A stretch of 58,023 bases of DNA, taken from NCBI GenBank assembly GCA_030652575.1, contig JAUSQI010000119.1:1-58023 (forward strand), given 5' to 3'. The stretch comes from Stagnimonas sp. GTDB lineage: Bacteria > Pseudomonadota > Gammaproteobacteria > Nevskiales > Nevskiaceae. The notes beneath the pieces were generated by a model. The model ran no database searches. It was not told the DNA's origin and saw nothing but the letters and a program-made list of their open reading frames with translations. This document shows positions 1 through 50,816 of this stretch, one piece after another. The translations under genes and the position numbers were made by a program. Position 1 is the first letter of the stretch. Every line of letters begins with the position of its first letter.

Positions 1-88
1 GGAGAGGTGGCAGAGTGGTCTATTGCGGCAGTCTTGAAAACTGCTGAGTCGCAAGGCTCCGGGGGTTCGAATCCCTCCCTCTCCGCCA
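1..88 (+). tRNA. tRNA-Ser (UGA)
   Basis: Complete serine tRNA with the long variable arm typical of class II tRNAs. The acceptor stem GGAGAGG (1-7) pairs with CCTCTCC (78-84), followed by discriminator G85 and an encoded CCA (86-88). The anticodon loop CTTGAAA gives anticodon TGA. The window opens exactly at the first base of this gene. It is chromosomal, outside the mobile element. Confidence 0.95.
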
Positions 89-106
89 TCACTTTCAGTT
101 TCTGTT

Positions 107-185
<79 letters not shown>

Positions 186-221
186 TTGATGAAAATATCT
201 GGCTATAATTCGCGCCCCTTT

Positions 222-298
222 GGTGGCCGTAGCTCAGTTGGTAGAGTCCCAGATTGTGATTCTGGTTGTCGCGGGTTCGAGCCCCGTCGGTCACCCCA
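222..298 (+). tRNA. tRNA-His (GUG)
   Basis: The anticodon loop TTGTGAT gives GTG. Acceptor GTGGCCG (223-229) pairs with CGGTCAC (288-294) with one G-T wobble. The extra G(-1) at 222 faces C295, the hallmark of tRNA-His, followed by encoded CCA. Confidence 0.95.
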
Positions 299-315
299 AA
301 GTTTTTTGTAGGCTT

Positions 316-391
<76 letters not shown>

Positions 392-17471: not shown

Positions 17472-20023
17472 CGCTGCGCTCCGCGCCGCACCAGTTCTTC
17501 CACGGCCCAGACCAGGCTCTTGCCTGCCTTCTCGGCATCGCGGATGAACTGAAACTCGTCGGCCTTCGTCGAGTAGAGCTTCTCCGCGAAGGGATCAACC
17601 ACCAGCCTTCCGATGGAAACTCCGGCAGGGCCTTTCACGGCAATCTCGGAATACTTGCCCTGCACGGTGTCCACACCGCGCAGCAGTTCTTCCAGGCTGT
17701 CGTCCATGTGCAGCAGACCCTTCTGACGAACCTGCGCGAGCGACTCCGGCTTCTGTCGCAGCAGGAACAGGAAGTCGGCGTTCTCCAGTGCCGCCTGACT
17801 GATCGGCGATTTGTAGTAGTCGCCGATGCCCTGCGTGACGGTCATAAACGCACCGCCGTATTTGCGGGCCGTGCGATAGCCGCGTTCGATGAACTTGCCC
17901 GCCTGACCCTGGCCCATGAGCTGCCAGGCTTCATCAATGATCGCCAGCTTTCTGAGCTTGCGGTCGTGCAGATACATCTCCTCGGTGATGCGCAGCATCA
18001 GGGTGAGCAGCACCACGCTTTGCAGATCGGGCGTGTTGACCAGATCGTCCAGTTCCAGCACCACGAAGGGATTGGATAGATCAATGTTGGCGCGGCCCTC
18101 GAAGAACACGCCGTAGCCGCCGTCGCGGGTATAGGGATAGAGCATCACCGACAGTTCGCGCTGCGCTGGTTCGTAGGCGCTGGCCAGCTCTGCCGCGACC
18201 GCAGTGATGGTCGAGTCCGGCCCGTGCTTACGCCACACCGCGACGATGGCCTGTTCGAGATAAGAGAGTTGCGCGCTGTCGAGCGGTGTCACCGGCGAGG
18301 CCATCTGCGAAAGCAGTTGCTTGAGCAGCGGCAGCTCCTCCGACAGCTCGTCGTGATTCACCCGTGAGAAGGGGTTGATGTTGAGGCCCGACGTGCGCGT
18401 GAACTTGAGATAGCTGCCGCGCAGCAGGCCGCAGAGGTTGCGGTAACTTTCGCCCGCGTCGATCACCGACACGCGCCCGCCAGTGCCCATCACGCTGGTC
18501 GCCAGCTCTTGCGTGAAGAAGCTCTTGCCCGCGCCGGAGGTGGCCGCGCAGGCGATATTGAAATTGCCCTTGGTGTTGTCGAAAGGGTCAACGAACTGCA
18601 CCTGCCCACGACGGCCCAGCAGCAACAGCAGCGGACTGCCGGTGCCTTTCCACTCACCAACGACCGGCGCGGTGTTGATGCAACTCCAGGTCAGCATCGA
18701 GCGGAAGAAGCGCAGCTTTTTCAGCTCGGCTATGAAGGCAGGGCCGGTGCTCATCGGCAGCGCGGCGAGGAAGGAATGCAGGACTGAAAAGCGATCCTTC
18801 GCCAACTGCCAGCCGCGTGACTCGAACACGGCGCGCATCCGCTGCTCGCAGTATTCCTCCTGTCCCAGCGGCGCAAACAGCACGATCTGAAAATGGCCTT
18901 GCAGCAGTTTGTGGCCTTCTTCCAGCGACTTGATGACGAAATCCCAATCCTTCTTGCGCTCGCGCCAGGCCGGGACGAACTTGCCCATCGGTGTATCGGT
19001 CATCTGGGTGGCACGGGCACTCTTGAGCTTGGCGGCACCGGCGGCGGCGACCGGATCGCCGACGACGATGGTCTGCGTGTAAAGCACCGGGCATGGCAGG
19101 CGCAGCGTGTTGTTGGTAAGCGCGCCAATCAGTTCGCCCATCTGCCAGCCGGGCCATTCAAGAGGGTAGTTGCGCACCGACCAGGGCAGCACGCTGATGT
19201 TGAACTCGCCATGCACCAGCGAGGCCGAATCGCGCCCAACCAGCAACAGGCTGTCGCGGTCTGCGACTTGCTCTGCCAAGGGGCGTGACTTGTCCCAGTG
19301 CAGCGGGAACCGCTTGCCCGGCTGCGGGTTGAGCATCGTGTCTATCAACCGCACGAAAGCATCCGGGCTGATCTCCGTCGCATTGAGCTTGGCGCTCAAC
19401 AGCAGGCCCTTGTATGCCTCGCGGGTGCGTTGCAGCCATTCGAGTTCGGCGTCTTCGACGCCGTTCGCGCCGATGGGCCGTGCCACGCTAATGAACAGCC
19501 GCCAGTCCTTGAGCACGAAGGGCTGATCGGTGAGCAGTGACGACCAATTGCCGGTGCCGAGGTAGTCCGCGCGCTTGGCGGCGAGCGTCTCGAAAATCTC
19601 CGACCGCTCTCCGGCGCGGCCATGACGTGCGCTCTGCCACTGGTCGAGCAGCGGTTGCACGTTGGGGTCGCTGTAGAGCACCAACTGCACCACGGTGTTG
19701 TCTTTCAGGCCCTGGGTGAGCAGGCCGGACAGGGTGTTCAAGGCCGAGCGATCCAGGCCGACGGCGGGCATCACTTCGAGCAGGAAGGCCACGCTGTCGC
19801 TGTTCCACCAAAGCTGCGTGTCCGGGTCGTAGGACTCGTAAGGCAGCAGGCTGGAAAGCGCGCGTGCGGAGGCGATGCGCGAGGTCTCGCGCAGGCTCGG
19901 CGGCAACTGCCCGGCGGCATACAGCTCACCAGGAGGTTCTTCGGCCAGCCAGCGCCGAGCCTCACCGCCGATTCGCGCCTTAAGGCGGGCGAGCGCCGAG
20001 GCGTTCAGTGCGCGACTGTCCAT
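17468..20023 (-). CDS. traC: T4SS ATPase TraC (VirB4 class)
   Basis: An 851-residue cytoplasmic ATPase that powers pilus assembly. Walker A is TSGAGKS (495-501) and the Walker B region is AIIDEAWQL (Asp-Glu-Ala-Trp at 697-700). An N-terminal VirB4-like domain precedes them. F TraC is 875 residues. The start ATG 20023 gives MDSRALNAS and overlaps traV by 19 bases; the frame is open upstream but that stretch lies inside traV and traB. Confidence 0.94.
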   Translation of the reverse strand: MDSRALNASALARLKARIGGEARRWLAEEPPGELYAAGQLPPSLRETSRIASARALSSLLPYESYDPDTQLWWNSDSVAFLLEVMPAVGLDRSALNTLSGLLTQGLKDNTVVQLVLYSDPNVQPLLDQWQSARHGRAGERSEIFETLAAKRADYLGTGNWSSLLTDQPFVLKDWRLFISVARPIGANGVEDAELEWLQRTREAYKGLLLSAKLNATEISPDAFVRLIDTMLNPQPGKRFPLHWDKSRPLAEQVADRDSLLLVGRDSASLVHGEFNISVLPWSVRNYPLEWPGWQMGELIGALTNNTLRLPCPVLYTQTIVVGDPVAAAGAAKLKSARATQMTDTPMGKFVPAWRERKKDWDFVIKSLEEGHKLLQGHFQIVLFAPLGQEEYCEQRMRAVFESRGWQLAKDRFSVLHSFLAALPMSTGPAFIAELKKLRFFRSMLTWSCINTAPVVGEWKGTGSPLLLLLGRRGQVQFVDPFDNTKGNFNIACAATSGAGKSFFTQELATSVMGTGGRVSVIDAGESYRNLCGLLRGSYLKFTRTSGLNINPFSRVNHDELSEELPLLKQLLSQMASPVTPLDSAQLSYLEQAIVAVWRKHGPDSTITAVAAELASAYEPAQRELSVMLYPYTRDGGYGVFFEGRANIDLSNPFVVLELDDLVNTPDLQSVVLLTLMLRITEEMYLHDRKLRKLAIIDEAWQLMGQGQAGKFIERGYRTARKYGGAFMTVTQGIGDYYKSPISQAALENADFLFLLRQKPESLAQVRQKGLLHMDDSLEELLRGVDTVQGKYSEIAVKGPAGVSIGRLVVDPFAEKLYSTKADEFQFIRDAEKAGKSLVWAVEELVRRGAQR

Positions 20024-39005: not shown

Positions 39006-41327
39006 TCAAGCCAATAACTGCTTGGCCAAAGCCACTTCAATGGAATCGGCGTCCTGGTTCAGGACATCCAACCCCGTGTCCGGCATGTCGCCGGAGGTAG
39101 ACTGCGAGACGGCGATCTTCTTGGCCATGAGCGTCAGACACCCGATCTGGGTGGTGTCGCCGTAGCCGAGAAAATGCACGTCCACGGGCAACTTCTGCCC
39201 GATGCGCCAAGACCTGCGCGCCGCTTGCTGCAAGGTGTAGACGTTGTAGCCCGTCTGCATGAACACGATGGTGGGAAAGTCGAGCAGGTCGAGGCCCGTC
39301 TTCACCAGCTCCGGGTTCGTGACCAGCACGTCCACGCCGCGATCCACCTGATCTGCAATCCAGGCTTCCCGCTGCGACGTGTCCACGCTCGCCTTCAGCA
39401 CCGCCACCTTCAGACCCTCGGCTTCGAGGATCGCCTTCAAGCGCGCCGTCGTATCGCGTGTGCCCGTGTAGGTGGTGTAGGCCAGCACCTTGCGGTGTTT
39501 GGCTTTCTCCGCTTTCACGATGCGCAACAGCTCGCGCTCCTTCGGCATTGGCTCCAACGGCCCGAACAGAACCGGCGCTTCGACCAACAGCGACCGTGAG
39601 CGCGGGTGCCGCACCACTTCCTCACGGAAGCAACAGTCCGGCCAGGCCAGCAACACGTTGAGCACCACGCCGAGCAGGGATTGATCCCCGCTGACGAGCG
39701 CACGCCGCATCTCCGCCACCAACGACGACCGCAAACGCGCGTAGTGAAACGCCTGATCCTCTGACAGCTTGACCTCGGTGAAATGCTCCCGATACGGCGG
39801 CAGCACGTCGGCCCCGATGTCGCGCAGCTTCAGGAAGGCGGTGAACGGCAACACATACCGCGCGATGCCTTTGGGGCCGAAGCCCGGTGCTTTCGTCGTG
39901 CGCACGGTCATCTGCTTCGCGCGCGAGGTGCGGTGTGACTTGCCCTCGGTCTGCTTGTAGATGTCCTTGAGCACGCCATGCTTGCGCATGAAGCCCATCG
40001 CCGCTGCGCCGATGCTGCCGCGCGTGTAGCGAAAGCCGTCCTCGATCATCCGTTCCGGCATGATCCGCCACAGTAGGTGAAACAGGTCGTCGGCATAGCC
40101 ACCCATCAGCGTGCCAGTGAGCAGCAACACCTTGCGCGACTTCGCCGCCAGCACGCCCATCGCCTGTCCCTGCGCCGAACCTTCGTTCTTGAACTCGTGA
40201 CCTTCATCCACGATGAGCAAGTCGAAAAAGCCGTCCGGCAGGTAACGCTTGATGAACTCCGTCGGTTGATAGCCGCCCTGACCAAAACCAAACTCGGTCG
40301 TGGCCAGTGCGCGCTCGATGCGCCGCGCCTGCTTGTCGTGAAACACCAACTCGCCGTCCTCATCCATCAGATTGACGAACTCGTAGACGTTGTCTTCGAT
40401 CATGCCGCTGAGCAGCTCCTCGCCGAACCGGCCAACGAGCTTGCCCGCCGTGACCTTGCCGATGGTCGGCAGGCCACAGAGTGCATCCACCAGCACCTCG
40501 CGGCGCGACTTGGGCTGGCCGGTGGGCCGCATCAAAGACCACAGGGGCGAACTGCACTCCCCGCACTTCACGCGCTTGTCGAGCGGGAACAACGACGGCT
40601 GATATGGATTGCCATCGCTATCCCGCGCCGGGGTGCCGCAGCAAGGGCAGACCGCCACCTCGCGCAGCTCCGAGTCCACCACTGCGCCATCTTCACCCTT
40701 CGTCTCAATCCGCAGACGCCGGACGTTGAAGGCAGCCCGCCAGTGAAAGCCCATGCGCATCCGCACGCGACCGAGCACGAAGAACTCCCGTGCCGCAGCC
40801 CCGCCTTCACGCACCTTGAGCAGCTTGCGCAGGGTGTCGGGGCCGTTGAGCACCGTCACCTTTGCGCCTGGGATGGTTTCCAGGATTTCGCGCCGCCACT
40901 TGTAGACCAGGTGCGGCGGTGAGATCACCAGCACGCGCCCATATTGCTCGGACTGTTGCAGCACCGCAGCGGCAGAAATCGCCATCATGGTTTTGCCGGT
41001 TCCCATCTCCGCGTTGATGACGGCGGCGGGCTGATCGGCTTCGACCAACAGACGGCAGACGGCCTGCACCACGGCGCGCTGGGCGGCGAAGGGTTTGCGC
41101 CGAAGCGCATCCATCACCACATCACGCGCCGCATCCGGTGTGCCGTCGTAGATCGGCGGGTTCTGCGTGGAGACCGCTTCCAGCAGGCCATCACCAAACT
41201 CGGCGACGAACTGCTGCAAGGCGATCACACGCTCCCCCGTCTGCGCCATGTCCGGCGCGGGATGAAACTCAGGCAGCGCCGAAACCGGCATTGCGTCTTG
41301 CACAACAACATCAAGGTCTTCGCTCAT
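39006..41327 (-). CDS. SNF2/DEAD-type helicase of the ICE core with zinc ribbon
   Basis: A 773-residue SF2 ATPase. Walker A is EMGTGKT (107-113), motif II is in LLIVDEGHEFKNEG, and the C-terminal helicase domain includes LQQAARRSWRIGQ. An inserted zinc-ribbon-like module has CPCC (227-230) and CGEC (255-258). Proteins of this type are conserved in ICE maintenance blocks and probably act on element DNA. ATG 41327 lies behind GGAG and the repeated structured leader. It is unrelated in detail to the SNF2 protein at 29863. Confidence 0.87.
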   Translation of the reverse strand: MSEDLDVVVQDAMPVSALPEFHPAPDMAQTGERVIALQQFVAEFGDGLLEAVSTQNPPIYDGTPDAARDVVMDALRRKPFAAQRAVVQAVCRLLVEADQPAAVINAEMGTGKTMMAISAAAVLQQSEQYGRVLVISPPHLVYKWRREILETIPGAKVTVLNGPDTLRKLLKVREGGAAAREFFVLGRVRMRMGFHWRAAFNVRRLRIETKGEDGAVVDSELREVAVCPCCGTPARDSDGNPYQPSLFPLDKRVKCGECSSPLWSLMRPTGQPKSRREVLVDALCGLPTIGKVTAGKLVGRFGEELLSGMIEDNVYEFVNLMDEDGELVFHDKQARRIERALATTEFGFGQGGYQPTEFIKRYLPDGFFDLLIVDEGHEFKNEGSAQGQAMGVLAAKSRKVLLLTGTLMGGYADDLFHLLWRIMPERMIEDGFRYTRGSIGAAAMGFMRKHGVLKDIYKQTEGKSHRTSRAKQMTVRTTKAPGFGPKGIARYVLPFTAFLKLRDIGADVLPPYREHFTEVKLSEDQAFHYARLRSSLVAEMRRALVSGDQSLLGVVLNVLLAWPDCCFREEVVRHPRSRSLLVEAPVLFGPLEPMPKERELLRIVKAEKAKHRKVLAYTTYTGTRDTTARLKAILEAEGLKVAVLKASVDTSQREAWIADQVDRGVDVLVTNPELVKTGLDLLDFPTIVFMQTGYNVYTLQQAARRSWRIGQKLPVDVHFLGYGDTTQIGCLTLMAKKIAVSQSTSGDMPDTGLDVLNQDADSIEVALAKQLLA

Positions 41328-41402
41328 GTGAATCTCCGGGTGGGTAGAAAGAAAACCCGGCGGGTACACGACCCCTGGCGGGAGCGTGTCCCGCGCGGGG
41401 TA
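41328..41402 (-). promoter_or_regulatory. Structured leader copy 8 (helicase)
   Basis: In the sense of the gene: ACCCCGCGCGGG, a CCC/GGGG hairpin, then CCGGGT pairing with ACCCGG just before the GGAG ribosome site. This matches the architecture of the other seven leader copies between 42.1 and 47.2 kb. Confidence 0.6.
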
Positions 41403-41417
41403 ATGCAAAGTGAAGCC

Positions 41418-42107
41418 TTACGCCGCCCTGCGGCGGGGTGTGGCAACAACAGGTGAAGCGTCTGGTTCCAGGCGCAGATGTCCGGCGTGCATCAGTTGCG
41501 AGATCGCGGCCTCGAAGGCCGGATCACCCAACTCCACGCGCCAGGCTTGAACACCGGCACCGTCGTCGAGACGACGCAGCCAGTTTTTCGCGTCGAGCAC
41601 TTCCAGCACCGGCTTGCGCCAGTGCGGGAGCAGCGGCAGATGTGAAACCTCGCGCACGAGCTGCCAGATGCGGCACAGCTCGTTCTCGCTCAGGCCATCG
41701 CTGGTATTGCTGCCGCGCAGGAACAGCAGGCCGACGCGGTTGGCGCGATCCGGCTCGGTGGCCAGACGGTCGTAAATCCAGAGCTGCGCGACATCGCCGA
41801 ACAGGTTCCGTGCAGGCAACCGTCCGCTGTGCTTCTCCATGCAGTTGATGCGGTCGAGATTGACCCGCAACTCAGAGGACTGACCCTGCGTGCCCTGGGT
41901 GATATGCAACATCGTGACGCCGCCATCCGAGACCGGCAGCGACAACCGCGCCTGCAATTCCTGCAAAGCGGTATCGCGGCCCCAGAGGGAGACAAACAAC
42001 AGACCGCCACGCTCATCGCGCAGCAGGGCATCGGCGTAAACGCCGGGAGCTTCCCGGACTTCCATCAGTGGAACAGACGGCTTGGCAACAGCGTGAGGTG
42101 TAGGCAT
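41418..42107 (-). CDS. Conserved ICE hypothetical protein (229 aa)
   Basis: A 229-residue soluble protein beginning MPTPHAVAKP. It has an alpha/beta N-terminal half (GGLLFVSLWGRDTALQELQA) and a helical C terminus ending in an Arg-rich tail. I do not recognise the family. ATG 42107 is set by GGAG in the structured leader; the frame is open upstream but that region folds as leader. It is in line with the helicase gene 90 bases downstream. Confidence 0.75.
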   Translation of the reverse strand: MPTPHAVAKPSVPLMEVREAPGVYADALLRDERGGLLFVSLWGRDTALQELQARLSLPVSDGGVTMLHITQGTQGQSSELRVNLDRINCMEKHSGRLPARNLFGDVAQLWIYDRLATEPDRANRVGLLFLRGSNTSDGLSENELCRIWQLVREVSHLPLLPHWRKPVLEVLDAKNWLRRLDDGAGVQAWRVELGDPAFEAAISQLMHAGHLRLEPDASPVVATPRRRAA

Positions 42108-42439
42108 GACGTTCTCCGTGTGGTTGAGGAAAACGCCGAACGCACAGCCGCCCGTGAGGGCGATTGCGCCCTCGGCGGGTGGTGAAACCGGCGGATGCCG
42201 GTGATGGTTGAAACGAGGATCGAGGGCCGAATGGCCCTTGCAGTGCTTCCCGATCCGGCACTGGTACGCACGAAACCCTCGTGCGGGGGTGAAACCTGTT
42301 CGGTGGGCAATGCTCCCGCAATGCCCGATGCGTTTGCTTGCGACGCTTCTCTCCAAGCGGCCTTGCAGACCACTTCGAGAGAAGCGTCGCGCAGATGCGC
42401 GACGCTGCCGGAAGACCGGCCCAAAAATGTAACGACAAC
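42108..42439 (-). promoter_or_regulatory. Long structured leader copy 7 with alternative hairpins
   Basis: This 332-base gap has no gene but dense structure. Nearest the start codon is the common leader (42108-42182), where CGTTTTCC pairs with GGAGAACG over the ribosome site. Further upstream in the transcript are a CCGGC/GCCGG hairpin with a short T-run, the hairpin GCACGA/TCGTGC (42268-42284), and two overlapping stems that share one strand (42340-42405). The order of elements is repeated before the DUF3577 gene. Confidence 0.6.
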
Positions 42440-43543
42440 TCAACGGATGGTGATGACCTGCCCGTAGGTGGACGAGTGCGGCGTGAAGTCGAGTGCGCGA
42501 ATCACCGGCACAAACTTGTCGGTGAGGATGCGGATCTCCGAAGTCGTGCCGTCAGGCAGTTCCTCGTATTCCGTTTTCACGTCCTTCTCCTTGTGCGTAT
42601 CGCCCTTGACCACAAAGCGGCGACCGCCTGCCGCGTGAACCACACCCGACACCTGGCCCGCTGCAAGCGCCAAGGCCAGATGCCAGCGTGAAAGCGGCCG
42701 CAGAGGCCGACGATGGGTGGTTTCGACGTGCGCAAAGCGCACCTCGAATTGCTCCCACAGACTTGGCCAGCGGCGAAGCTCGTCCGCAAGTTGCGTCGGT
42801 TCGATGACGCTGTAGGCGAACTTCACCTCGGCCCCGGTTGCGGCAGGCACGGCATACGGCAGGTTGTCCCAGTGCTCCGGGATGACCTCCAGCCCTTCGC
42901 CGCGTCCCGCCGCTTCGAGCTGCTCACGGATCAAGCTGCTGGGTGCGGCATCTGCGGTGCGACGGCGCACGCCGATGACGATGGCCTGCTTGAACCGCTC
43001 CTCCGGTGCCTTGTAAACACACACGCGGTCGAACTGCCCCGCGATCCAGGTGGAGAACTCACGATCCAGCGTGTAGTGCGGAACGATCAGCACCAGCACG
43101 CCGCCGTAAGCCAGGCTCGGCAGCGCGCGCTGGTAGAACAGCTTTTCCAGCCGCTTGCGCCCCTTGCCATCGGAAGGCCCGCCGGACTTGTCGGACACCA
43201 GATCGCCATACGGCGGATTCAGCCACAACAGGCCGAATTGCCGCTTGCCGACGAGGCAGTCCTGAAAGTCGCCGTGAATGCAGCGGTCGAGCAGACCCTT
43301 CGCGTGCCAGGCACGTTCGCGGTCGTATTCGACGCCATAGGCTTCGGCCTTATCGCCGCCCAGATGGGCTTTGACTTCGGCCAGTGCCACACCTTCACCG
43401 GCGCAGGGGTCGAGCACACGCATCGCGCCCGATGCGGCTGGGACGATGGCGTTGAGGATGCGCGAAGTGGTGTCTTCGTCGGTGGGGAAATACCCGTTCT
43501 TGATGAAGTTGCGCGCGAGGCGCTGAAACATGAGTGCTGACAT
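42440..43543 (-). CDS. DUF6094-type SAM-dependent methyltransferase of the ICE core
   Basis: A 367-residue class I methyltransferase. Motif I is in VLDPCAGEGVAL (about 43-54) and the catalytic-type motif is LLWLNPPYGD, typical of amino-methylating DNA methyltransferases. Conserved in ICE core regions, where it may modify element DNA. ATG 43543 is preceded by AGGAG. It is the one gene of this block without the repeated leader; a terminator hairpin precedes it instead. Confidence 0.85.
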   Translation of the reverse strand: MSALMFQRLARNFIKNGYFPTDEDTTSRILNAIVPAASGAMRVLDPCAGEGVALAEVKAHLGGDKAEAYGVEYDRERAWHAKGLLDRCIHGDFQDCLVGKRQFGLLWLNPPYGDLVSDKSGGPSDGKGRKRLEKLFYQRALPSLAYGGVLVLIVPHYTLDREFSTWIAGQFDRVCVYKAPEERFKQAIVIGVRRRTADAAPSSLIREQLEAAGRGEGLEVIPEHWDNLPYAVPAATGAEVKFAYSVIEPTQLADELRRWPSLWEQFEVRFAHVETTHRRPLRPLSRWHLALALAAGQVSGVVHAAGGRRFVVKGDTHKEKDVKTEYEELPDGTTSEIRILTDKFVPVIRALDFTPHSSTYGQVITIR

Positions 43544-43573
43544 GGATGAACTCCTGGTAGTGACATGGATGTG

Positions 43574-43603
43574 AAGAAAACTGCGGCGCGAAATGCGCCG
43601 CAG
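43574..43603 (-). terminator. Intrinsic terminator between the 191-aa gene and the methyltransferase
   Basis: On the minus strand CTGCGGCGC, a five-base loop, GCGCCGCAG and then TTTTC. The nine-base stem (43581-43603) is perfect. It would end the transcript of the 191-residue gene, implying that the methyltransferase has its own promoter or depends on read-through. Confidence 0.75.
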
Positions 43604-43617
43604 CGAACGAAGCCACG

Positions 43618-44193
43618 TCAGGCCGTAGCGGCTTGAGTGGGCAGTGACAACGGGGTTTGAACAGGCGATGCAGCCGGATCGGCCGGGAGCTTTTCGCCGA
43701 GTAGGCGGCGCTTGATGCGGTAGAGCGTGCCGTTGCAGTCGCGTCCCCGAAGCGGGCGAACGCTGGTGATGCGCACGGACTCGACCTTGCAGCCGACGAG
43801 CGACCAGCAATCCCCAACCGCAATGGGACGGCTGTTGCGCGCATGCCACTTGCGCACCTCCTCGCGCCAGGCTGGACAGGCTTCAGGAGCCATGTCCAGA
43901 TAGGTCAAGGGGCAGTGGTAGTGATACGGGTGCATGGATTCCTCCATGTCCTTGTAGCCCCAGCCGAAGTTCTTCTGCGGTGCGATCAGGTAGCAGCCGA
44001 TGAAGCGGTGTGGAACGCCCGCCTCGAAGCGAGGATTGCCTTGCTTGAACACGACCTCTTGCACCGTCCACAGCACATTGCCTTTGGTGCAATGGGCGAG
44101 CGTGCGGTAGCTGGTCTTGTCGTTTTCTTCCGGCTTGGTGAGACGTTGAATCAGGTCAGCGCGGGTCTGACCACGGGTGAATAACCATCCCAT
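43618..44193 (-). CDS. Conserved ICE hypothetical protein (191 aa, MGWLF start)
   Basis: A 191-residue protein beginning MGWLFTRGQTRADLI with aromatic-rich central segments (CYLIAPQKNFGWGYKDMEES, HPYHYHCPLTYLDMAP) and a basic C-terminal part. The MGWLF N terminus recurs in small proteins of ICEs and plasmids (possibly DUF6927-type, from memory). No catalytic motif is evident. ATG 44193 lies behind AAGGAGA in a structured leader. Confidence 0.75.
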   Translation of the reverse strand: MGWLFTRGQTRADLIQRLTKPEENDKTSYRTLAHCTKGNVLWTVQEVVFKQGNPRFEAGVPHRFIGCYLIAPQKNFGWGYKDMEESMHPYHYHCPLTYLDMAPEACPAWREEVRKWHARNSRPIAVGDCWSLVGCKVESVRITSVRPLRGRDCNGTLYRIKRRLLGEKLPADPAASPVQTPLSLPTQAATA

Positions 44194-44262
44194 GACGAAT
44201 CTCCTTGAGTGATGCCGGGAGACGCGCCACCCCTGTCGGGGAACGAGTCCCCGGACGGGTAG
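44194..44262 (-). promoter_or_regulatory. Structured leader copy 6 (191-aa gene)
   Basis: Sense-strand order: CTACCCGTCCGGGG, a CCC/GGGG hairpin, then TCTCC that can pair with GGAGA of the ribosome site. Same arrangement as the other leader copies. Confidence 0.6.
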
Positions 44263-44285
44263 AACAACGGTTTTTCTGGCAGTGG

Positions 44286-44618
44286 TTAAGTGAGGCTGTA
44301 GGCTTCCTTGCGCGCGTCGTCGGTGAGACGGCAGCGCGCATGGCAATCCGCAGTGATGCCGAGATACACCGGCGTCCAGAACGGACGCACGATGCCGCCC
44401 TCGATCAGCGCGGCAACGAGACCGACGTGTTCACCCTGGGTTTTGACCAGGATTTCGTCGGCTTCGAGACGCACTTCACCGGGCGATGTAGCAACCGCGA
44501 TGAAACGCCCATCCGCCGAAGGCCGCGCCGAACAGCAACTGAGCGCGAGGCATAGGGACTGGTTTTCGTAGAACGACCATTCGGTCGTGCAGCGACAGCT
44601 TTTGAAGCTGATCTTCAT
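44286..44618 (-). CDS. Conserved ICE hypothetical protein (110 aa)
   Basis: A 110-residue protein beginning MKISFKSCRC with four cysteines in the first 30 residues and a short C-terminal Cys pair (CHARCRLTDDARKEAY). The family is unknown to me. It sits between the 191-aa gene and the DUF6573 gene, behind a structured leader with GGAG before ATG 44618. Confidence 0.72.
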   Translation of the reverse strand: MKISFKSCRCTTEWSFYENQSLCLALSCCSARPSADGRFIAVATSPGEVRLEADEILVKTQGEHVGLVAALIEGGIVRPFWTPVYLGITADCHARCRLTDDARKEAYSLT

Positions 44619-44686
44619 AAATTCTCCGTGATGAAAGAAAGCCGGAGACAAGCCCCCGCAAGCGGGGACAGGCCCCGGCAGGGTGG
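44619..44686 (-). promoter_or_regulatory. Structured leader copy 5 (110-aa gene)
   Basis: Sense strand: CCACCCTGCCGGGG, CCCC/GGGG hairpin, then TCTCCG pairing with CGGAGA over the ribosome site (six base pairs). Confidence 0.65.
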
Positions 44687-44709
44687 GTGAAAAGCGATGA
44701 AGCGAAACC

Positions 44710-45171
44710 TCAGTCCTCGTGCGGCAACAAGATCGTGATGACGTGCTCCCCGTTGTCGCCGGGGCCGCTCAACATCTTCAATGTCGCCTTGCGGGGTCTG
44801 GTGGCGCGGCCACCGCGCGGCACGCGATAGAGCTGGTAGAACAGAGCTGGAAACCGCTCCTGCGAGCGACCCGATTCCGGCACGCGCAGGCGGCTGGCGA
44901 TGGCCACGTAGCCCATCCACAGCACGTCCCACAGGCGACCCGATTCGTTCTGCGTGGTCTGGCGGCGAGTGTCCTCGTCGCTCCATTCCACGAAGTCCGA
45001 CCAGGCTGCGCGCGTCATTGCGACCGGCACCTTGAAGCCCGCTTCGACAGCGGCATTCGACACGTCCACCAGCACGCCATCCGCCAGCGCCTGAGCACGG
45101 GTGTAGGCGTAGATGACCGGGCCAAACGGGTTGTTACCTTCTGGCCCTTGCGAGCCGTCGTTGTTGTGCAT
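44710..45171 (-). CDS. DUF6573-type ICE protein
   Basis: A 153-residue soluble protein: MHNNDGSQGPEG, then VIYAYTRAQALADGVLVDVS, AAWSDFVEWSDED and a C-terminal beta-rich part ending ILLPHED. The YxRAQAxxDGxLxDVS phrase is characteristic of the DUF6573 family found on ICEs and plasmids; function unknown. ATG 45171 follows AGGAG in the structured leader, although the frame is open further upstream. Confidence 0.82.
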   Translation of the reverse strand: MHNNDGSQGPEGNNPFGPVIYAYTRAQALADGVLVDVSNAAVEAGFKVPVAMTRAAWSDFVEWSDEDTRRQTTQNESGRLWDVLWMGYVAIASRLRVPESGRSQERFPALFYQLYRVPRGGRATRPRKATLKMLSGPGDNGEHVITILLPHED

Positions 45172-45256
45172 GTGCAACTCCTGGAATAAGCCGGAGCGCA
45201 CGCACCCCGCGTGGGGTGGTTGCCCCAGCGGGTTGGAAAAAACCGGCGAATGCCGG
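45172..45256 (-). promoter_or_regulatory. Structured leader copy 4 with upstream terminator-like hairpin
   Basis: Sense strand: CCGGC/GCCGG hairpin followed by six T (45237-45256), then CCAACCCGCTGGGG, CACCCC/GGGGTG hairpin, and CTCCGG facing CCAGGAG at the ribosome site. The T-run makes the first hairpin look like an intrinsic terminator placed before the leader. Confidence 0.65.
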
Positions 45257-45796
45257 CGGCTAAAACAGAACACCGAGGGACTCAAAGCGAATCCCCGCCG
45301 CACCTTCCCGATGCGAAAGCGGCTTGCCACGAAACTCTCTTGGCCAGAGCGAAAAACCATGAAGCTGTCAGCGAGCTTTCCGCACGACTCAAGCGCATGA
45401 GCCGTGTGGAAAACCCTCTGCCGAAAACTGCTCGGCAAAAGGCGGTTTTGAAGACATCAGCGATGAGAGACGGCGCGGGCTTCCATATAGCCGTGAAGCG
45501 GAAGCCTGCGGGCTAAAAGCCTTTACAGCGGACAACCCCTGGGGACGAACACGACGATCTGCGGTGGGATGCGTCTGGCCTCGTTCCTGACCCATTGCAG
45601 CGGGGCGTTGAGCCAATCGAATGCGGCGCACGGAGTTACCCGCACAAAGGGGCCTGGTCGGGTGCCGACGCCAGGCAGCCGGTGCGTTGAAGAAGGCCAC
45701 CGGCCTTCTTGCAAGACCCGACGGAAATCACTCCCGCAAGGCCCTCCAAGAAAGCCGGTGGCGAACCGTCACCGGCTTCGCCACCGACTGGAAGGA
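45257..45796 (-). other. Noncoding stretch upstream of the DUF6573 leader
   Basis: About 540 bases without a convincing gene. It holds several hairpins: AAGCCGGTG/CACCGGCTT (45752-45778), likely terminating the DUF3275 transcript; AAGAAGGCC/GGCCTTCTT (45690-45710); and a 12-base imperfect stem around 45385-45415. The part near the leader resembles the upstream part of leader copy 7 (a shared ATCGGGAAG motif). A 63-codon frame at 45523-45714 has only a TTG start and is not accepted. Confidence 0.5.
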
Positions 45797-46408
45797 CTAC
45801 TCCTTCACCCACAGCTGACCCAAAGGCTGGAACTTGAAGCCCAAATCCTTCAGGGCATCGCGCTGGGCGCGAAAGTTCTGCCGATCCACGGTGGGATCGA
45901 GCTTCACCTTGCCCTGGAGCGGCCACAGCGTGCCGAACATCCGACGGTATTCCTGCTCATTGCGGAAGATGATTTCTTCCTCGATGGACATGACCGGAAT
46001 CGGTGCGCCAGCAGGTGGAATGGCCTCAATACCAGCGCCATGCACTGCCGGTTCGAGATCGGCGATTTCGAGTGGTGCTTCAGCCACGATGGGCTTGCGC
46101 GCTTCCTCGATGGGATCGTGCTCGACGACGGGCAGCGTGTCTTCATCGGTGAGCTGCTCGATGCCCTTGAGGGCGATGCTGCCGAGCCGCGCACGGATTT
46201 CGACGACGGTGCGTCCGTTGGTGAAGTAAGTCGAAGGAAAGATGCTGCTGATACTGAACTCGCCTTCGTAACGGCCCTCTTCGTATTCCTCGATGAGGGG
46301 GTCTTTGACGGCGAACTCGCCGATCTCGGTGACGAGGCGACCGACATTGAAGTCGCCGCGTGCGCCTTTGACGGAACGAATTGCCAGAATGCCGCTGAGT
46401 TTCAACAT
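45797..46408 (-). CDS. DUF3275-family ICE protein
   Basis: A 203-residue soluble protein: MLKLSGILAIRSVKGARGDFNVGRLVTEIGEF, FSISSIFPSTYFTNGRTVVEIRA-type beta segments and an acidic central region, then a C-terminal helix-strand part ending LGQLWVKE. This pattern matches DUF3275 proteins of PAGI/ICE-type elements; function unknown. ATG 46408 follows GGAG in leader copy 3. Confidence 0.85.
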   Translation of the reverse strand: MLKLSGILAIRSVKGARGDFNVGRLVTEIGEFAVKDPLIEEYEEGRYEGEFSISSIFPSTYFTNGRTVVEIRARLGSIALKGIEQLTDEDTLPVVEHDPIEEARKPIVAEAPLEIADLEPAVHGAGIEAIPPAGAPIPVMSIEEEIIFRNEQEYRRMFGTLWPLQGKVKLDPTVDRQNFRAQRDALKDLGFKFQPLGQLWVKE

Positions 46409-46481
46409 GGGATGACTCCGGTGGTGTGGAAAGAAACACACGGCCAGCGCCAGCCCTTGCGGGGTGGCACCCGCCGGGTGG
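46409..46481 (-). promoter_or_regulatory. Structured leader copy 3 (DUF3275)
   Basis: Sense strand: CCACCCGGCGGGT, CCCC/GGG hairpin, then CTGGCCGTGTG opposite CACACCACCGGAG. The stem CGTGTG/CACAC places the ribosome site at its base. It diverges most from the other copies but keeps the order of elements. Confidence 0.55.
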
Positions 46482-46502
46482 AAACGCTTGGGAACGACAG
46501 CC

Positions 46503-46583
46503 CTACATCACGCTTGCGAGTGCGATGGCTTGCGAGGTGAAGAGGTAAATCACCAACATGCGAACGCTGAACAGATGGGACAT
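46503..46583 (-). CDS. Candidate 26-residue hydrophobic small protein
   Basis: A short frame starting MSHLFSVRML and ending ALASVM, then TAG. The middle is hydrophobic enough for one membrane span. It has AGGAGA eight bases before its ATG and its own copy of the structured leader that otherwise precedes only real genes. It is either a functional micropeptide or the remnant of a deleted gene. No family is recognisable at this length. Confidence 0.55.
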   Translation of the reverse strand: MSHLFSVRMLVIYLFTSQAIALASVM

Positions 46584-46650
46584 GACGCATCTCCTAAAAA
46601 GTCGGAGACACGTCAGCCCCAGGCGGGGAACGTGTCCCCGGCGTGGGTGG
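46584..46650 (-). promoter_or_regulatory. Structured leader copy 2 (26-residue gene)
   Basis: Sense strand: CCACCCACGCCGGGG, then the extended stem GACACGT/ACGTGTC enclosing CCC/GGGG, and TCTCC facing GGAGA at the ribosome site. Among the best-formed copies of the leader. Confidence 0.65.
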
Positions 46651-46666
46651 TGAAGCGGGAAGAAAA

Positions 46667-47116
46667 TCAGGCGGCGTTTTGCACCGCTGCGGCTTCGCGC
46701 GGCGGCTGGTAAACCATCACGCCATCCACCTTCGCAAACGTCAGGCGCAGCAGGTGGGCCTTGAGGGAAATCCCGGTCTGGCCCGCCTTGTCGCCTTTTT
46801 CGTACACGAAGGTTTCCGCGTAGAGATCACCGACCTTGAAGCCGACCAGCACCTTCTTCTTGGCCTCGATGTCGGCCTTGAGACGGTTGATGAGGCTGAT
46901 GGCTTCCTCACCGCTGACGCGGCAGTCGAAGCGGGTGTATTCAACCTCGTCGCTGGTGCCGCGCAGGGCGGAAACATCCACACAGACGAAGGGGTCGCCC
47001 TTCTTCACCTTCACTTCACGAACACGGCTGAGATAGCCGACGCCGGTGGTGTGCAGGTCGAAGTAACGCGGGCCGTTGGTGACGGGTGTATCGGTGCTGG
47101 TTTGAGTCTGGGACAT
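46667..47116 (-). CDS. DUF3577 (STY4534-like) ICE protein
   Basis: A 149-residue protein: MSQTQTSTDTPVTNGPRYFD, then LHTTGVGYLSRVREVKVKKG and the beta-rich core VCVDVSALRGTSDEVEYTRF. This is the DUF3577/STY4534 family found in the replication-maintenance block of PAGI/ICE elements; an OB-like single-strand DNA binding role has been suggested by position only. ATG 47116 follows GGAG inside leader copy 1. Confidence 0.88.
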   Translation of the reverse strand: MSQTQTSTDTPVTNGPRYFDLHTTGVGYLSRVREVKVKKGDPFVCVDVSALRGTSDEVEYTRFDCRVSGEEAISLINRLKADIEAKKKVLVGFKVGDLYAETFVYEKGDKAGQTGISLKAHLLRLTFAKVDGVMVYQPPREAAAVQNAA

Positions 47117-47377
47117 GGGACTACTCCGGTAGGAACAAAGTGAAATGCCGGAGCGCGCAGACCCCGACGGGCTTGCTTGCCCCAGCGGGTGGTCGAACCT
47201 TGCGGTTCGGGATGGGTGAATACACCGGGCGGGGCCGGGCTGAAACGAGTGAATCTGATCTGCGATTCACCAGCACCGCGAAGGCTTGAAGGCCCTCGTG
47301 CAGCTGCAATCCGGTGCGATAGCTGCGCCCCCCAAAAACAGCCGACAGTCGGGGGCACTGGCATGAAAACCTCATGC
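47117..47377 (-). promoter_or_regulatory. Long structured leader copy 1 (DUF3577)
   Basis: Nearest the gene, 47117-47192 is the common leader, with CTCCGG pairing perfectly with CCGGAG over the ribosome site. Upstream in the transcript are CGAACC/GGTTCG, and at 47361-47377 the hairpin GCATGA/TCATGC, the counterpart of GCACGA/TCGTGC in copy 7. The remaining gap to 47557 holds no gene and must contain the divergent promoters for this block and the PLD gene. Confidence 0.65.
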
Positions 47378-47557
47378 GGGGGAAACTTTGCGAACGCTAA
47401 TTCAGCCCCCCATCCCAGGCCAAGGAAAACCGCAACCTGATCCGGCACGGTTTCATTGACTGATTTGCCACCATCCTCGACGACGATGCCGCGACGCGCG
47501 CCCGGCCTCTCGTTTCTGACTCGGCAGCGTGCGGATCACCGACATCAGGAGAACGGC

Positions 47558-49264
47558 ATGGCGACCATCGTGGACTTCGAGCGCGTGTTCCAGCGCGACG
47601 GCCTCACCCTCAAGCTCTATCGTGGCGAAGGCATGGCGCTGCTGGCTTTCGATCTCGACCCGGCGCAGGCCACACGGGACTTCGTGGGCTTCGCCGTCGA
47701 GTTCAAGCCGCCGCGCGCCTACGAGTGGTTCCCGCTGCCCAACCGCCTGCGCTTCGAGGGCGCACCAGCGCACCCCAATCATCGCTATTCCTCGCTGGAC
47801 GCCCCGTTCCAGAAGTTCCGCTGGATTCATGTGCCGAGCAAGGTCGTGCGCGGGGACTACGCCTACCGCGTTACCGCGCGCTACATGCAGCCCGATGGCA
47901 GTCTGGTGTCGGGTGCCAGCGTCATGGGTGCGATCTCGCTCGATCCCGTCACCATCAGCGGCTTCGTCAACGTCGGCTTCACGCGCGGCTTTGCCTCCTC
48001 TCAGGCGTATGCAGAAAAGGACTGGCCGAACAAGGAAGGCATCCTGCCGCCGCCGGAACTCAAGGGCATCGCCGAGCTGACACATCCTGTCGCCAACTTC
48101 CAGCCGCACTACGAATGGCTGGGCTTCGAGGCCAGGCGCTTGCTGTTTGATCTGCTGGAAGCCTGCTTCGTGGATGAAGAACTCACCGTCGAGGCAATGA
48201 TCTACGAGTGCCGCGAACCGGCAGTGCTCACCGCGTTGGAGAAGCTCGGCCCGCGCCTGCGCGTGCTGATGGATGACCACGGCGAGATGGGCGACGACGC
48301 CAGCCCGGAAAGCGAATCCGCACGACGGCTCGTTGCGGCCGGTGCCGAGGTGAAGCGCACGCACTTCAAGCGCCAGCAGCACAATAAGGTGCTGATCGTG
48401 AAGCGCAATGGCGTGCCGGTGCGGGCCTTGGCGGGTTCCACCAACTTCTCGCTGCGCGGCCTCTACATCCAGGCAAACAACGTGCTGCTGTTCGAGGACA
48501 AGAACATCGCCACGCGCTACGCCGATGTCTTCGCGGCCTACTGGAGTAACCCGAAGAAGTTTCATGAGCATCCGCTGTCGCAGCAGTGGCATGTCGGACG
48601 CGATACGCCGGAGTCACGCTTCTCGTTCTGCTTCTCACCGCGCCGGGACGAGGCCCTGTCGCTCGACCCGGTGGCGCAGGCGATCCGCGAGGCCGAAAGC
48701 TCGGTGCTCTATGCCGTGGTGTTCCTGCCACAGCTCACTGGTGCCGTGAAGAATGCGATTGAAGACCTCAACAACCGCTCGCTGTTCTCCTACGGCGTGG
48801 CCCAGCGCACCGGCTCGCTGACGGTGAACAAGCCGGACGGCTCACGCGGCCTGTTGCCGTTCGCGTACATCGGCGCGAACGCGCCGGAGCCGTTCAAGCG
48901 CGAATGGTCGGGCGGCGAAGGCAACATGGTGCATCACAAGTTTGTCGTTACCGACTTCAACGGCGCGCGGCCCAAGGTCTTCACCGGCTCGTCGAACCTC
49001 GCCGCCGGTGGCGAGCGCGAGAACGGCGACAACCTGGTGATGATCGAAGACCGCAAGGTCGCCATCGCCTATGCCATCGAGGCATTGCGGCTGTTCGACC
49101 ACTTCCACTTCCGCGCGCGGCTCAAGGAGGGCGAGACGCAAGTCGAGCGCATGACGCTGGCCAAGCCGCCCAGCACGCCGACGGGCAAGACCTGGTTTGC
49201 GGCCTACTACCGCACGGGGCATGTCAAAGAGAGGGATCGTCGGCTGTTTGCGGGATCATGTTGA
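47558..49264 (+). CDS. Phospholipase D-like protein with two HKD motifs
   Basis: A 568-residue PLD-superfamily protein. Two catalytic motifs are visible: HNKVLI (His275, Lys277) with AGSTNFS (292-298), and HHKFVV (His459, Lys461) with GSSN (477-480). Two HKD half-sites form one active site in this family, which includes nucleases and phosphodiesterases. There is no signal peptide, so it is probably cytoplasmic; a nuclease role in the element or defence is possible. ATG 47558 has AGGAG upstream. Its end overlaps ynfA by nine bases on the opposite strand. Confidence 0.85.
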
Positions 49265-49591
49265 TCGCAGTGAGCCAACGATCAGCACGCCACATCCCAG
49301 CGCGATCAACGTCACACCGGCGACATCGGTCACGGTCGGCATCGAGCGATCCACAATCCACAGCCAGGCCAGCGCCGAGCAGGTATAGACCCCGCCGTAG
49401 GCGGCGTAGACCCGCCCAGATTCGGCGGGATGACGGGTCAGCAGCCAGGCAAACAGGCCGAGTGCGACTGCCGCAGCCGCCAGCATCCATAGCCCGCCGC
49501 CGCGCTTTGACCAGTGGAGAACCAAGTAGCAGCCGACGATCTCTGCCACCGCCGTGAGCAGAAATAGTCCCAGTGTGGTGATGAGCGACAT
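49256..49591 (-). CDS. ynfA: YnfA/UPF0060 family membrane protein
   Basis: A 111-residue, four-helix membrane protein with the family phrases [15 protein letters not shown] and [22 protein letters not shown]0060 proteins resemble small multidrug-resistance transporters. It is coupled to the regulator gene (TGATG overlap at 49589-49593), so the two form one minus-strand unit. Confidence 0.92.
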
Positions 49592-50052
49592 CAGTGCCCC
49601 CGGCGCGAGCTATGGACACCGGCAGCAGCACCGGCTCGCCGACTGGACGGTGCCGTTGCCAGCTCGTGCAGGATGCCGCAGTCCTTGCTGGTGCTCGGCG
49701 CATCGCAATGGGCGCGCAGCGCCTTGAGTTCGACATGAAGCCGCCGCAGAGCGCGCATTCTTTCGGTGACATGCTCGATGTGCTCGTCCAGCACCGCATT
49801 CACCTCGGCGCAGCCCTGCTCAGGATCATCGCGCAGGCGCAGCAGGCTGCGAATCTCCAGCAAGCTCATGTCCAGCGCGCGGCAATGAAGGATGAACTCC
49901 AGCCGCGCACGTTCGCCCTCGGCGTAGAGTCGGTAGTTGCCGTCGCTGCGGGCGGGCTTGGGCAGCAAGCCCTCGCGCTCGTAGTAGCGAATGGTCTCCA
50001 CCGGCACATCCAGCAGGCTGGCGAGATCGCCGATTCGGTAGGTTTTGGGCAT
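49591..50052 (-). CDS. cadR: Cd(II)/Pb(II)-responsive MerR-type regulator (CadR/PbrR-like)
   Basis: A 153-residue MerR-family activator. The N-terminal winged helix ([20 protein letters not shown]) and dimer helix are followed by metal-site cysteines 81, 116 and 125 in the CadR/PbrR pattern. It would bind the long-spacer promoter at 50068-50098 and switch on the transporters when metal is present. CadR proteins often end in a His-rich tail; here the tail is Arg/Ser-rich. Confidence 0.88.
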
Positions 50053-50067
50053 GAGCGACTCCGGGGC

Positions 50068-50098
50068 TTGACCCTGAAGCTACTACAGGCTGTCCAAT
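50068..50098 (+). promoter_or_regulatory. MerR-type promoter for the metal transporter genes
   Basis: TTGACC (50068-50073) and TCCAAT (50093-50098) are separated by 19 bases, the long spacer used by MerR-family activators, and the spacer contains the dyad CCTG...CAGG. It lies between cadR and the first transporter and faces the transporter. Confidence 0.7.
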
Positions 50099-50126
50099 AC
50101 GCGCCATTCCCGCTCCGAGTACTGCG

Positions 50127-50816
50127 ATGTCGGCCAATTGCTGCGAATCCAGTTGCACCCCTGCCACGGCGATCCCGCCGCGCTACCGGCGTGCCTTATG
50201 GATCGCCCTCGTCGTCAACCTCGCCATGTTCGGAGTCGAATTGGCGGCTGGCTGGGGCGCGGGTTCTGCCTCGCTGCTCGCAGATGCCATAGATTTCTTC
50301 GGCGACGCCGCCAACTACGCCGTCTCGCTGTTCGTGCTGTCGATGGGTTTGGCGGTGCGGGCACGGACTGCGCTGCTCAAGGGGCTGTCGATGGGGGCTT
50401 ACGGCCTCTATGTGCTGGGCGTGGCAGCCTGGAACGCCGTGCATGGGGTGGTGCCGGAGGCGATGACGATGGGCCTGGTCGGCACGCTGGCGCTGTGCGC
50501 CAACCTTGGCGTCGCGGCAATGTTGTACGCCTACCGCGAGGGCGACGCCAACATGCGTTCGGTCTGGCTGTGCTCACGCAACGATGCGATCGGCAATCTC
50601 GCCGTCATGATTGCAGCAGTCGGCGTCTGGGGCTCCGGCTCTGGGTGGCCGGATGCAGTCGTCGCCGTCGGTATGGCAGCACTCGCCCTGAGTGCATCGG
50701 CCTCGGTGATCGGGCAAGCACGAAGAGAGTTGCGTGCGGCGACGTCGCGTCTAGTGGCAATCGACGAATCGAGAAGCGGTCGAGCTACTGATTTGCTGAC
50801 GGGAGACCGGGGATGA
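50127..50816 (+). CDS. Cation diffusion facilitator-like transporter 1
   Basis: A 229-residue membrane protein with a Cys-rich N terminus (MSANCCESSC) and five or six hydrophobic segments. DAIDFFGDAANY and SRNDAIGNLAV take the place of the paired His-Asp motifs in helices 2 and 5 of classical CDF proteins. It probably exports divalent metal. It starts 28 bases after the MerR-type promoter and overlaps the second transporter (ATGA at 50813). Confidence 0.82.
   Translation: MSANCCESSCTPATAIPPRYRRALWIALVVNLAMFGVELAAGWGAGSASLLADAIDFFGDAANYAVSLFVLSMGLAVRARTALLKGLSMGAYGLYVLGVAAWNAVHGVVPEAMTMGLVGTLALCANLGVAAMLYAYREGDANMRSVWLCSRNDAIGNLAVMIAAVGVWGSGSGWPDAVVAVGMAALALSASASVIGQARRELRAATSRLVAIDESRSGRATDLLTGDRG

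Follow-up and report, generated by a model that had tools for sequence, protein, structure and literature searches.

Eight open reading frames (ORFs) of an integrative and conjugative element (ICE) in Stagnimonas sp. are each preceded by a copy of one structured leader that probably acts as a two-state translational attenuator. The window, which is the whole stretch of DNA analyzed (contig JAUSQI010000119.1, positions 1-58,023), carries these leaders in a block at about 41-47 kb on the minus strand. Each leader ends at an ATG and contains, in order, CCC, a hairpin, GGG, an anti-Shine-Dalgarno (anti-SD) segment and a Shine-Dalgarno (SD) sequence. Seven of the eight are good copies, and the copy before 46408 is weak. 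A first-pass annotation had described structured leaders at these eight minus-strand starts, and the sequence itself, a search descriptor and a covariance model, R1, all confirmed them. The annotation had missed a competing second fold, in which the anti-SD pairs with the upstream hairpin, to which it is also complementary. Sequence analysis establishes the shared architecture, the place before start codons, both complementarities of the anti-SD and a predicted exchange between two folds. On this footing each leader is read as a probable cis-acting attenuator in the mRNA, with segments A, A', B and C framed by a helix, P1.

R1 was built from 32 leaders, two of them from the window (those before 44193 and 46583); the eight window leaders on their own gave a MAFFT alignment of insufficient quality for model building, and a wider leader set was used. 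The eight leaders are listed with their R1 scores, and the coordinate of each match is given in brackets.

47117..47191, minus strand: leader 1, before the DUF3577/STY4534 gene with start 47116; 15.7 bits, E 0.075 in the window search (match at 47114)
46584..46650, minus strand: leader 2, before a 26-amino-acid ORF with start 46583; 55.6 bits (46581); R1 training row
46409..46482, minus strand: leader 3, before the DUF3275 gene with start 46408; the weakest copy, 13.2 bits, E 0.26 (46406)
45172..45235, minus strand: leader 4, before the DUF6573 gene with start 45171; 39.8 bits (45169)
44619..44685, minus strand: leader 5, before a 110-amino-acid gene with start 44618; 28.4 bits (44616)
44194..44261, minus strand: leader 6, before a 191-amino-acid gene with start 44193; the clearest copy, 58.7 bits (44191); R1 training row
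42108..42181, minus strand: leader 7, before a 229-amino-acid gene with start 42107; 17.9 bits (42105)
41328..41402, minus strand: leader 8, before the SNF2-like helicase gene with start 41327; 23.6 bits (41325)

The segments are as follows in leader 6.

44257..44259, minus strand: 5' strand of P1 (CCC), read from the sequence, with P1 pairs counted over the aligned leaders
44244..44254, minus strand: segment A, the 5' arm and loop of hairpin P2, which can pair with A' or B
44237..44243, minus strand: segment A', the 3' arm of P2, read from the sequence and fold energies
44230..44233, minus strand: 3' strand of P1 (GGGG), partner of the P1 5' strand in fold 1 and of A' in fold 2
44215..44228, minus strand: segment B, the anti-SD, partner of C in fold 1 and of A in fold 2
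44194..44204, minus strand: segment C, the SD region, read from the sequence and fold energies

In fold 1, P1 (CCC/GGG), P2 (A:A') and B:C would form together and the ribosome site would be masked. Fold 2 would be a single long hairpin in which A:B encloses the pairing of A' with the 3' strand of P1, leaving the ribosome site free of B. Since A and C are complementary to much the same stretch of B, the two folds are predicted to compete. The P2 loop has no partner in fold 1 and could act as a toehold for the exchange. With A, A' and B transcribed before C, fold 2 would form on the nascent RNA and later be displaced by C, so that most full-length messages would be masked. A stable or read-through message would then be poorly translated, and translation would occur from fresh transcripts or whenever something holds fold 2. 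The exchange presumably takes place in cells, where a factor recognizing the shared AACCC/P1/P2 part may set the balance; that role might fall to a protein, a helicase, the ribosome or simply to time. Masking would be expected to lower translation at these leaders by analogy with one reported case, the attenuator of the SXT bet gene, which is said to exist in IncA/C elements as well.

Within each leader, the anti-SD segment B has two complementary partners, the SD region C and segment A. Partner shuffles were made on 194 non-redundant leaders (500 shuffles) with the energies of the actual segments. A:B pairing averaged -17.32 kcal/mol with a leader's own partner and -11.60 with shuffled partners (standard deviation [s.d.] 0.20, z -28.3), and B:C averaged -15.71 and -10.57, respectively (s.d. 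0.19, z -26.9). The loop of A alone also paired better with its own B (-3.45 versus -2.29 kcal/mol, s.d. 0.10, z -12.0). When partners were shuffled within a locus the A:B effect was kept (-17.33 versus -13.56, s.d. 0.25). Among the control pairings, A:C (z 0.1) and A loop:C (z -1.1) were flat, and A':B showed a slight effect (z -2.5). A second set of 119 leaders, collected with a descriptor demanding no B pairing and shuffled 200 times, gave z -18.9 for A:B, -14.3 for B:C and -7.2 for A loop:B, with controls at 0.0 and -0.5. Two of the eight tests on that set (the A loop against the initial 8 bases of B, and the likeness of the A loop to C) were dropped for unusable shuffled means.

The best A:B and the best B:C helix had half or more of their B bases in common in 191 of the 194 leaders; in the window, sharing was low only before 42107 (3/10) and moderate before 44618 (3/6). 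A and C can be nearly one word, as in the leader at 97183 of the IncA plasmid pRA1, which has GGGTACACCT and GGAGTACACCT flanking AGGTGTACCC, and an earlier test for similarity between A and C came out positive (own -10.22 versus -9.05, s.d. 0.18). Read on the coding strand, A:B was more stable than its opposite-strand counterpart in 162 of 194 leaders, as would be expected of a transcript.

Predicted folding of partial and complete leaders was consistent with the proposed order of events. Fold energies favored fold 1 in 173 and fold 2 in 20 of the 194 leaders, with a median difference of 7.2 kcal/mol. In nascent RNA cut before the SD, A:B was predicted (at least 5 expected pairs) in 155 of 194 leaders. 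A like nascent construct took A:B in 151 of 194 leaders with their own B and in 29-38 of 194 with the B of another leader. At full length B:C was predicted in 176 leaders, and both states in turn in 138. On pRA1, fold 2 was predicted for 16 of 20 leaders truncated ahead of the SD, and 19 of 20 full-length leaders had the SD paired with B, both judged by eye.

The first-pass annotation had stated that pairing is kept while loops and spacers differ. This held for fold 1 over 147 distinct aligned rows, where 262 cells were changed on both sides compared with 96.2 after shuffling (0 of 500 shuffles reached the count). For fold 2 the corresponding count was 110 versus 78.9 (0 of 500). We think that fixed-column counts understate fold 2, the loop lengths and registers of which vary, and segment energies were therefore used instead. 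A divergent leader before the pRA1 gene at 90446, which is not an R1 match, changed from GCCCC to GCTCC in B between IncA and IncC, together with a change from GGGG to GGAG in the SD. Plain folds of 21 IncA/IncC leader pairs agreed closely in most cases; many columns differed in three, namely those of bet (whose leader was cut short in the comparison), yfbR and the gene at 99812. Outside the private pairing words, the leaders have in common an AACCC flank, a GGGG/CCCC core and a U-rich tract after B.

A descriptor written from the eight leaders found all of them among 11 sites in the window, the other three being one reverse-strand echo and two unrelated sites. R1 gave 12 matches in the window, which were the eight leaders and four plus-strand echoes of the same palindromes (13.0-16.4 bits). 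Over the 3.4-Mb genome from which the window comes, five R1 matches had E <0.1, all inside the 41-47 kb block; the match at 42105 had E 1.5, and those at 47114 and 46406 were unlisted at E ≤10. A marginal match (E 0.28) was seen outside the window on contig C168 of the same genome, at 19609-19701, perhaps belonging to a second element.

Use of the leader before eight unlike genes in one element had looked unusual in the first-pass annotation. The leader is not peculiar to this element and recurs in many ICEs and conjugative plasmids. DUF3577 was found in 11 of 58 genomes of the family, 17 of 85 of the order and 20 of 369 sampled from the class, and at DUF3577 loci a plain descriptor gave up to 17 candidate leaders in 12.5 kb. 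At E ≤0.001, R1 matched 32 of the 369 class genomes: all 20 with DUF3577, many of which had supplied R1 training rows, and 12 of the 349 without it. In a sample of the phylum, 15 of 398 genomes matched at E ≤1e-4, the genome of the window included, and two of these lie outside the class.

At E ≤0.1, R1 matched plasmid pRA1 23 times, with 21 plus-strand matches and every match at 73.7-99.8 kb (about 26 of 144 kb). Most plus-strand matches in the stretch of pRA1 compared with its annotation end exactly at annotated starts, including those of bet (38.1 bits), an exonuclease, DUF3150, VWA and yfbR genes. At 206 and 13412 of the pRA1 locus (L095), R1 matches end at an unannotated ATG, which suggests missed or mis-started small genes. 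The IncC plasmid pUMNK88 had 35 matches at E ≤0.5, 27 of them plus-strand, and the annotated bet starts of both plasmids coincide with R1 matches. The leader precedes the bet genes of pRA1, pUMNK88 and three further loci, L071, L081 and L087. Bet genes that are 47-85% identical to that of pRA1 kept the leader in all four other loci where bet was found; several exo and ssb genes had no leader upstream, judged by eye. The bet region was present in 88 of 5,426 E. coli genomes. Pseudomonas aeruginosa pY89, which we take from its gene content to be PAPI-1-like, has the gene order of the window (DUF3577-DUF3275-DUF6094-helicase) and nine plus-strand R1 matches at E ≤0.5, eight of them at annotated starts. 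Leaders also precede RecT, exonuclease, ArdC and other genes on the Sulfuricystis plasmid pSTJ2. On the same plasmid (L089) a cobalamin riboswitch (RF00174) lies at 43601-43812 on the minus strand, directly upstream of a ribonucleotide reductase gene (41320-43458). A Xanthomonas plasmid stretch with a DUF6573 gene (L092) gave no R1 match at E ≤0.5.

Among the Pfam matches listed (25 of 35 families) for 145 protein clusters behind leaders were 15 DUF3577, 13 RadC, 6 DUF6573, 5 each of DUF3275, ArdC and RecT, 4 each of DUF3150 and DUF6094, 3 DUF932, 1 SSB and 1 antirestriction protein; helicase genes were also among the kinds of gene behind leaders across elements. The leader began within 60 nucleotides (nt) of the preceding stop codon in 52% of 255 cases (median 56 nt). 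Because few leaders overlap that stop codon, an upstream ribosome would seldom unfold the leader directly.

Several observations weigh against a two-state attenuator. Fold 1 was better by about 7 kcal/mol on average, so many leaders may be locked off rather than switching. The first-pass annotation had held that the leader can mask the ribosome site, and an anti-SD helix with compensatory changes, as expected of an SD-masking attenuator, was indeed found over many leaders. In the window, however, the pairing before 46408 is weak (the upstream hairpins and a good alternative fold are present, but the SD has 2.0 expected pairs), and among the seven leaders compared, leader 46583 having been removed by an ORF-length filter, fold 2 was the predicted winner in five, by 0.9-4.5 kcal/mol, and the masked fold in two. 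An "off by default" state may therefore not hold in the window. The largest preference, 4.5 kcal/mol for the alternative fold, was that of leader 1; the plain fold of leader 2 was the masked form. In leader 7 the two helices draw largely on separate portions of the anti-SD segment and can form together, and both pairings were present at full length in 12 of the 194 leaders. The pRA1 bet leader, the one with a functional precedent, was not predicted to take fold 2 when cut before the SD. The B:C statistics on R1 matches are inflated, as R1 contains that helix, which does not apply to the 119-leader descriptor set. In its fixed columns, fold 2 scarcely exceeded shuffles in pairs changed on both sides (10 versus 9.1), its further pair types were equalled by 43 of 500 shuffles, and slid controls came near its count. 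In B:C, G-U cells were no commoner than A-C cells (120 versus 156), and many A-C cells may sit where B serves both the GGGG of A and the GGAG of the SD. Only one clear compensatory change was seen among the 21 IncA/IncC gene pairs, in a comparison that left broken pairs uncounted. The two weakest window leaders (47116 and 46408) scored no better with R1 than the reverse-strand echoes.

The leaders might instead be plain attenuators that always mask the ribosome site, in which the A:B complementarity reflects no more than a transient state during folding or the origin of B as a copy of A'. The preference for fold 1 in 173 leaders, the behavior of the cut pRA1 bet leader and the description of the published bet attenuator simply as strong (PMC4542580, in the passages available) agree with this, but A:B is as leader-specific as B:C, even for the P2 loop, which would be partnerless in fold 1, and fold 2 was favored in five of the seven window leaders. 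Permanent masking thus appears unlikely. It is still less probable that fold 2 is an intrinsic terminator or pause site and that the leader acts mainly on transcription between operon genes. Directly after the fold-2 helix come six U-rich positions (T 0.66, 0.55, 0.59, 0.55, 0.51 and 0.42), a run of at least 4 T occurs in the next 9 bases in 60 of 194 leaders, and leaders coincide with 5 of the 10 terminator-like sites in 41200-47600; against this, 134 leaders have no run of 4 T, the terminator-like sites are in no clear excess (10 versus 6.4, s.d. 3.0), and B:C, made after the U tract, would be purposeless.

The kinds of gene behind leaders overlap with those of plasmid leading regions (SSB and antirestriction genes, in the passages of PMC11541004 available), which would suit hairpins that act as single-stranded DNA after transfer, as Frpo/ssi-like promoters or protein sites, and not as RNA. 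The element abuts the SD and start codon, however, A:B is more stable on the coding strand, and a simple consensus scan of 41200-47600 gave no sigma-70-like promoter match (0 versus 0.9 expected by shuffles), so a role as DNA is very improbable. Chance secondary structure of GC-rich intergenic DNA would account for the GC-rich helices and for the low scores of the two weakest window leaders, but not for the confinement of the five own-genome matches to the block and of the 23 pRA1 matches to about 26 kb, nor for partner-specific complementarity beyond that of shuffles, and can be practically dismissed. An RNA thermometer was set aside as a matter of judgment on the GC content of the helices.

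The two-state attenuator can be extended to a wider scheme, which we offer tentatively. One self-contained RNA device, in many copies, would stand before early genes of PAPI-1-like ICEs, IncA/C plasmids and other elements, and sequential refolding would time their translation, with fresh transcripts translatable and older ones self-shut; the pairing word private to each gene would prevent cross-pairing between neighbors in one mRNA. If true, the sequential-refolding device would constitute an RNA-level regulon for establishment genes.

The genes with family assignments in the block are as follows.

46667..47116, minus strand: DUF3577/STY4534 family ICE replication protein (PF12101, E 3.1e-50; NF040584)
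45797..46408, minus strand: DUF3275 protein (PF11679, E 2.3e-51)
44710..45171, minus strand: DUF6573 protein (PF20213, E 3.4e-26)
42440..43543, minus strand: DUF6094 methyltransferase-like protein (PF19587), without a leader of this kind
39006..41327, minus strand: SNF2-like helicase (PF00176, PF00271)

The genes behind leaders are unlike one another, as had been claimed: DUF3577/STY4534, DUF3275, DUF6573 and SNF2-like helicase by Pfam, and the rest without a family. The further claim of one leader per core gene goes too far: no leader was found upstream of the DUF6094 gene (43543) or the gene at 48592, and the copy at 46583 precedes the 26-amino-acid ORF. A shared anti-SD leader before unlike genes agrees with the shared switch that had been proposed for the ICE core block; coordination of the block as a whole is something we infer. 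The 26-amino-acid ORF (46503-46583, minus strand) carries one of the best leaders, and pY89 has two small leader-bearing ORFs at the equivalent site after its DUF3577 gene. Two leaders have long 5' regions ahead of them (45172-45796 and 42108-42440, minus strand), several hundred bases in length; these show inverted repeats but gave no convincing match in Rfam. Four tRNA genes stand in a row at the window edge (1-388, plus strand, by Rfam matches) and may mark the attachment neighborhood of the element.

A block of gene-transfer helper genes thus seems to be controlled at translation by a shared, mostly undescribed device. In the passages available, control of such elements is placed mainly at the promoter, and a word search of PMC8565334, on the control of PAPI-1, gave no occurrence of "translation". 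With about 20 genes of a single plasmid block bearing a leader, among them genes for recombination, antirestriction and single-stranded-DNA handling, a shared translational layer would be added both in elements that spread drug resistance, the IncA/C plasmids, and in Pseudomonas ICEs. The leaders also help to mark the start codons of small conjugation genes and provide a large natural variant set of one bistable RNA for folding studies.

Bistable RNA leaders are known from the expression platforms of riboswitches and attenuators, the MS2 maturation gene and hok mRNA. The leaders described here would share with them exclusive folds, sequential refolding and SD masking, as modeled. They differ in that no aptamer was recognized and that many copies, each with a private pairing word, cover one mobile-element block. 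As measured against a riboswitch, they have few conserved letters outside the helices (the AACCC flank and the U-rich tract).

The first-pass annotation had suggested that an Rfam motif named after DUF3577 or DUF3085 might cover the leader, but no Rfam model matches it. With Rfam 15, no family plausibly matched the leaders in the window at gathering thresholds or over 41000-50500 at E ≤10, where the low-threshold names were chance. Gathering-score matches in the window and scanned loci comprised tRNAs, a single cobalamin riboswitch and radC RNAs. Of these, radC RNA alone touched leaders in the 14 other loci, with partial overlap in two cases. RadC RNA (RF01754) is a structured RNA in 5' gene regions (Weinberg et al. 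2010; PMC2864571, in the part available), and like the leaders it occurs before genes of the same elements. It differs in being another, longer structure; most leaders in the 14 scanned loci have none, and where both occur the leader lies between the radC RNA and the start codon. Of eight radC RNAs (four in L093, two each in L020 and L022), six lie 6-30 nt 5' of a leader and two partly overlap one. At L093 (7201-12134), L020 and L022 the two RNAs may form one composite 5' region. In the window, radC RNA was matched neither at gathering nor at E ≤10 over 41000-50500, and separate searches of two leader regions gave no match to it either; nor was a radC-like RNA found in the 5' regions of the genes with starts 47116 and 42107, where one was sought.

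The Frpo/ssi single-stranded-DNA promoters of plasmid leading regions are likewise structured elements serving early conjugative genes, according to the passages available (PMC11541004). They are, however, DNA promoters with -10 and -35 boxes, none of which was seen at the window leaders in the simple consensus scan of 41200-47600, whereas the leader is predicted to mask the SD.

A close likeness is to the strong translational attenuator before bet of SXT, whose presence in IncA/C has also been noted (Garriss et al. 2013, cited in the review PMC4542580, in the passages available). The same passages report that SXT bet is highly transcribed yet poorly made and that the attenuator lowers translation of the abundant message, which the leader would fit. 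The pRA1 and pUMNK88 leaders lie at the same place as in SXT/R391, before bet, and the same kind of effect would be expected of them, the SXT leader being known here by description. The SXT attenuator is described as one on one operon, whereas the leader is one of about 20-27 plus-strand matches per plasmid block and occurs in other element families too. A second fold, part of the scheme proposed here, is unmentioned for SXT in those passages of PMC4542580, and searches confined to the open-licence literature yielded no account of such a fold or of a leader that recurs ahead of numerous conjugation genes. By its function, one instance of the device is already in print; the second fold and the occurrence of copies before many genes appear to be new.

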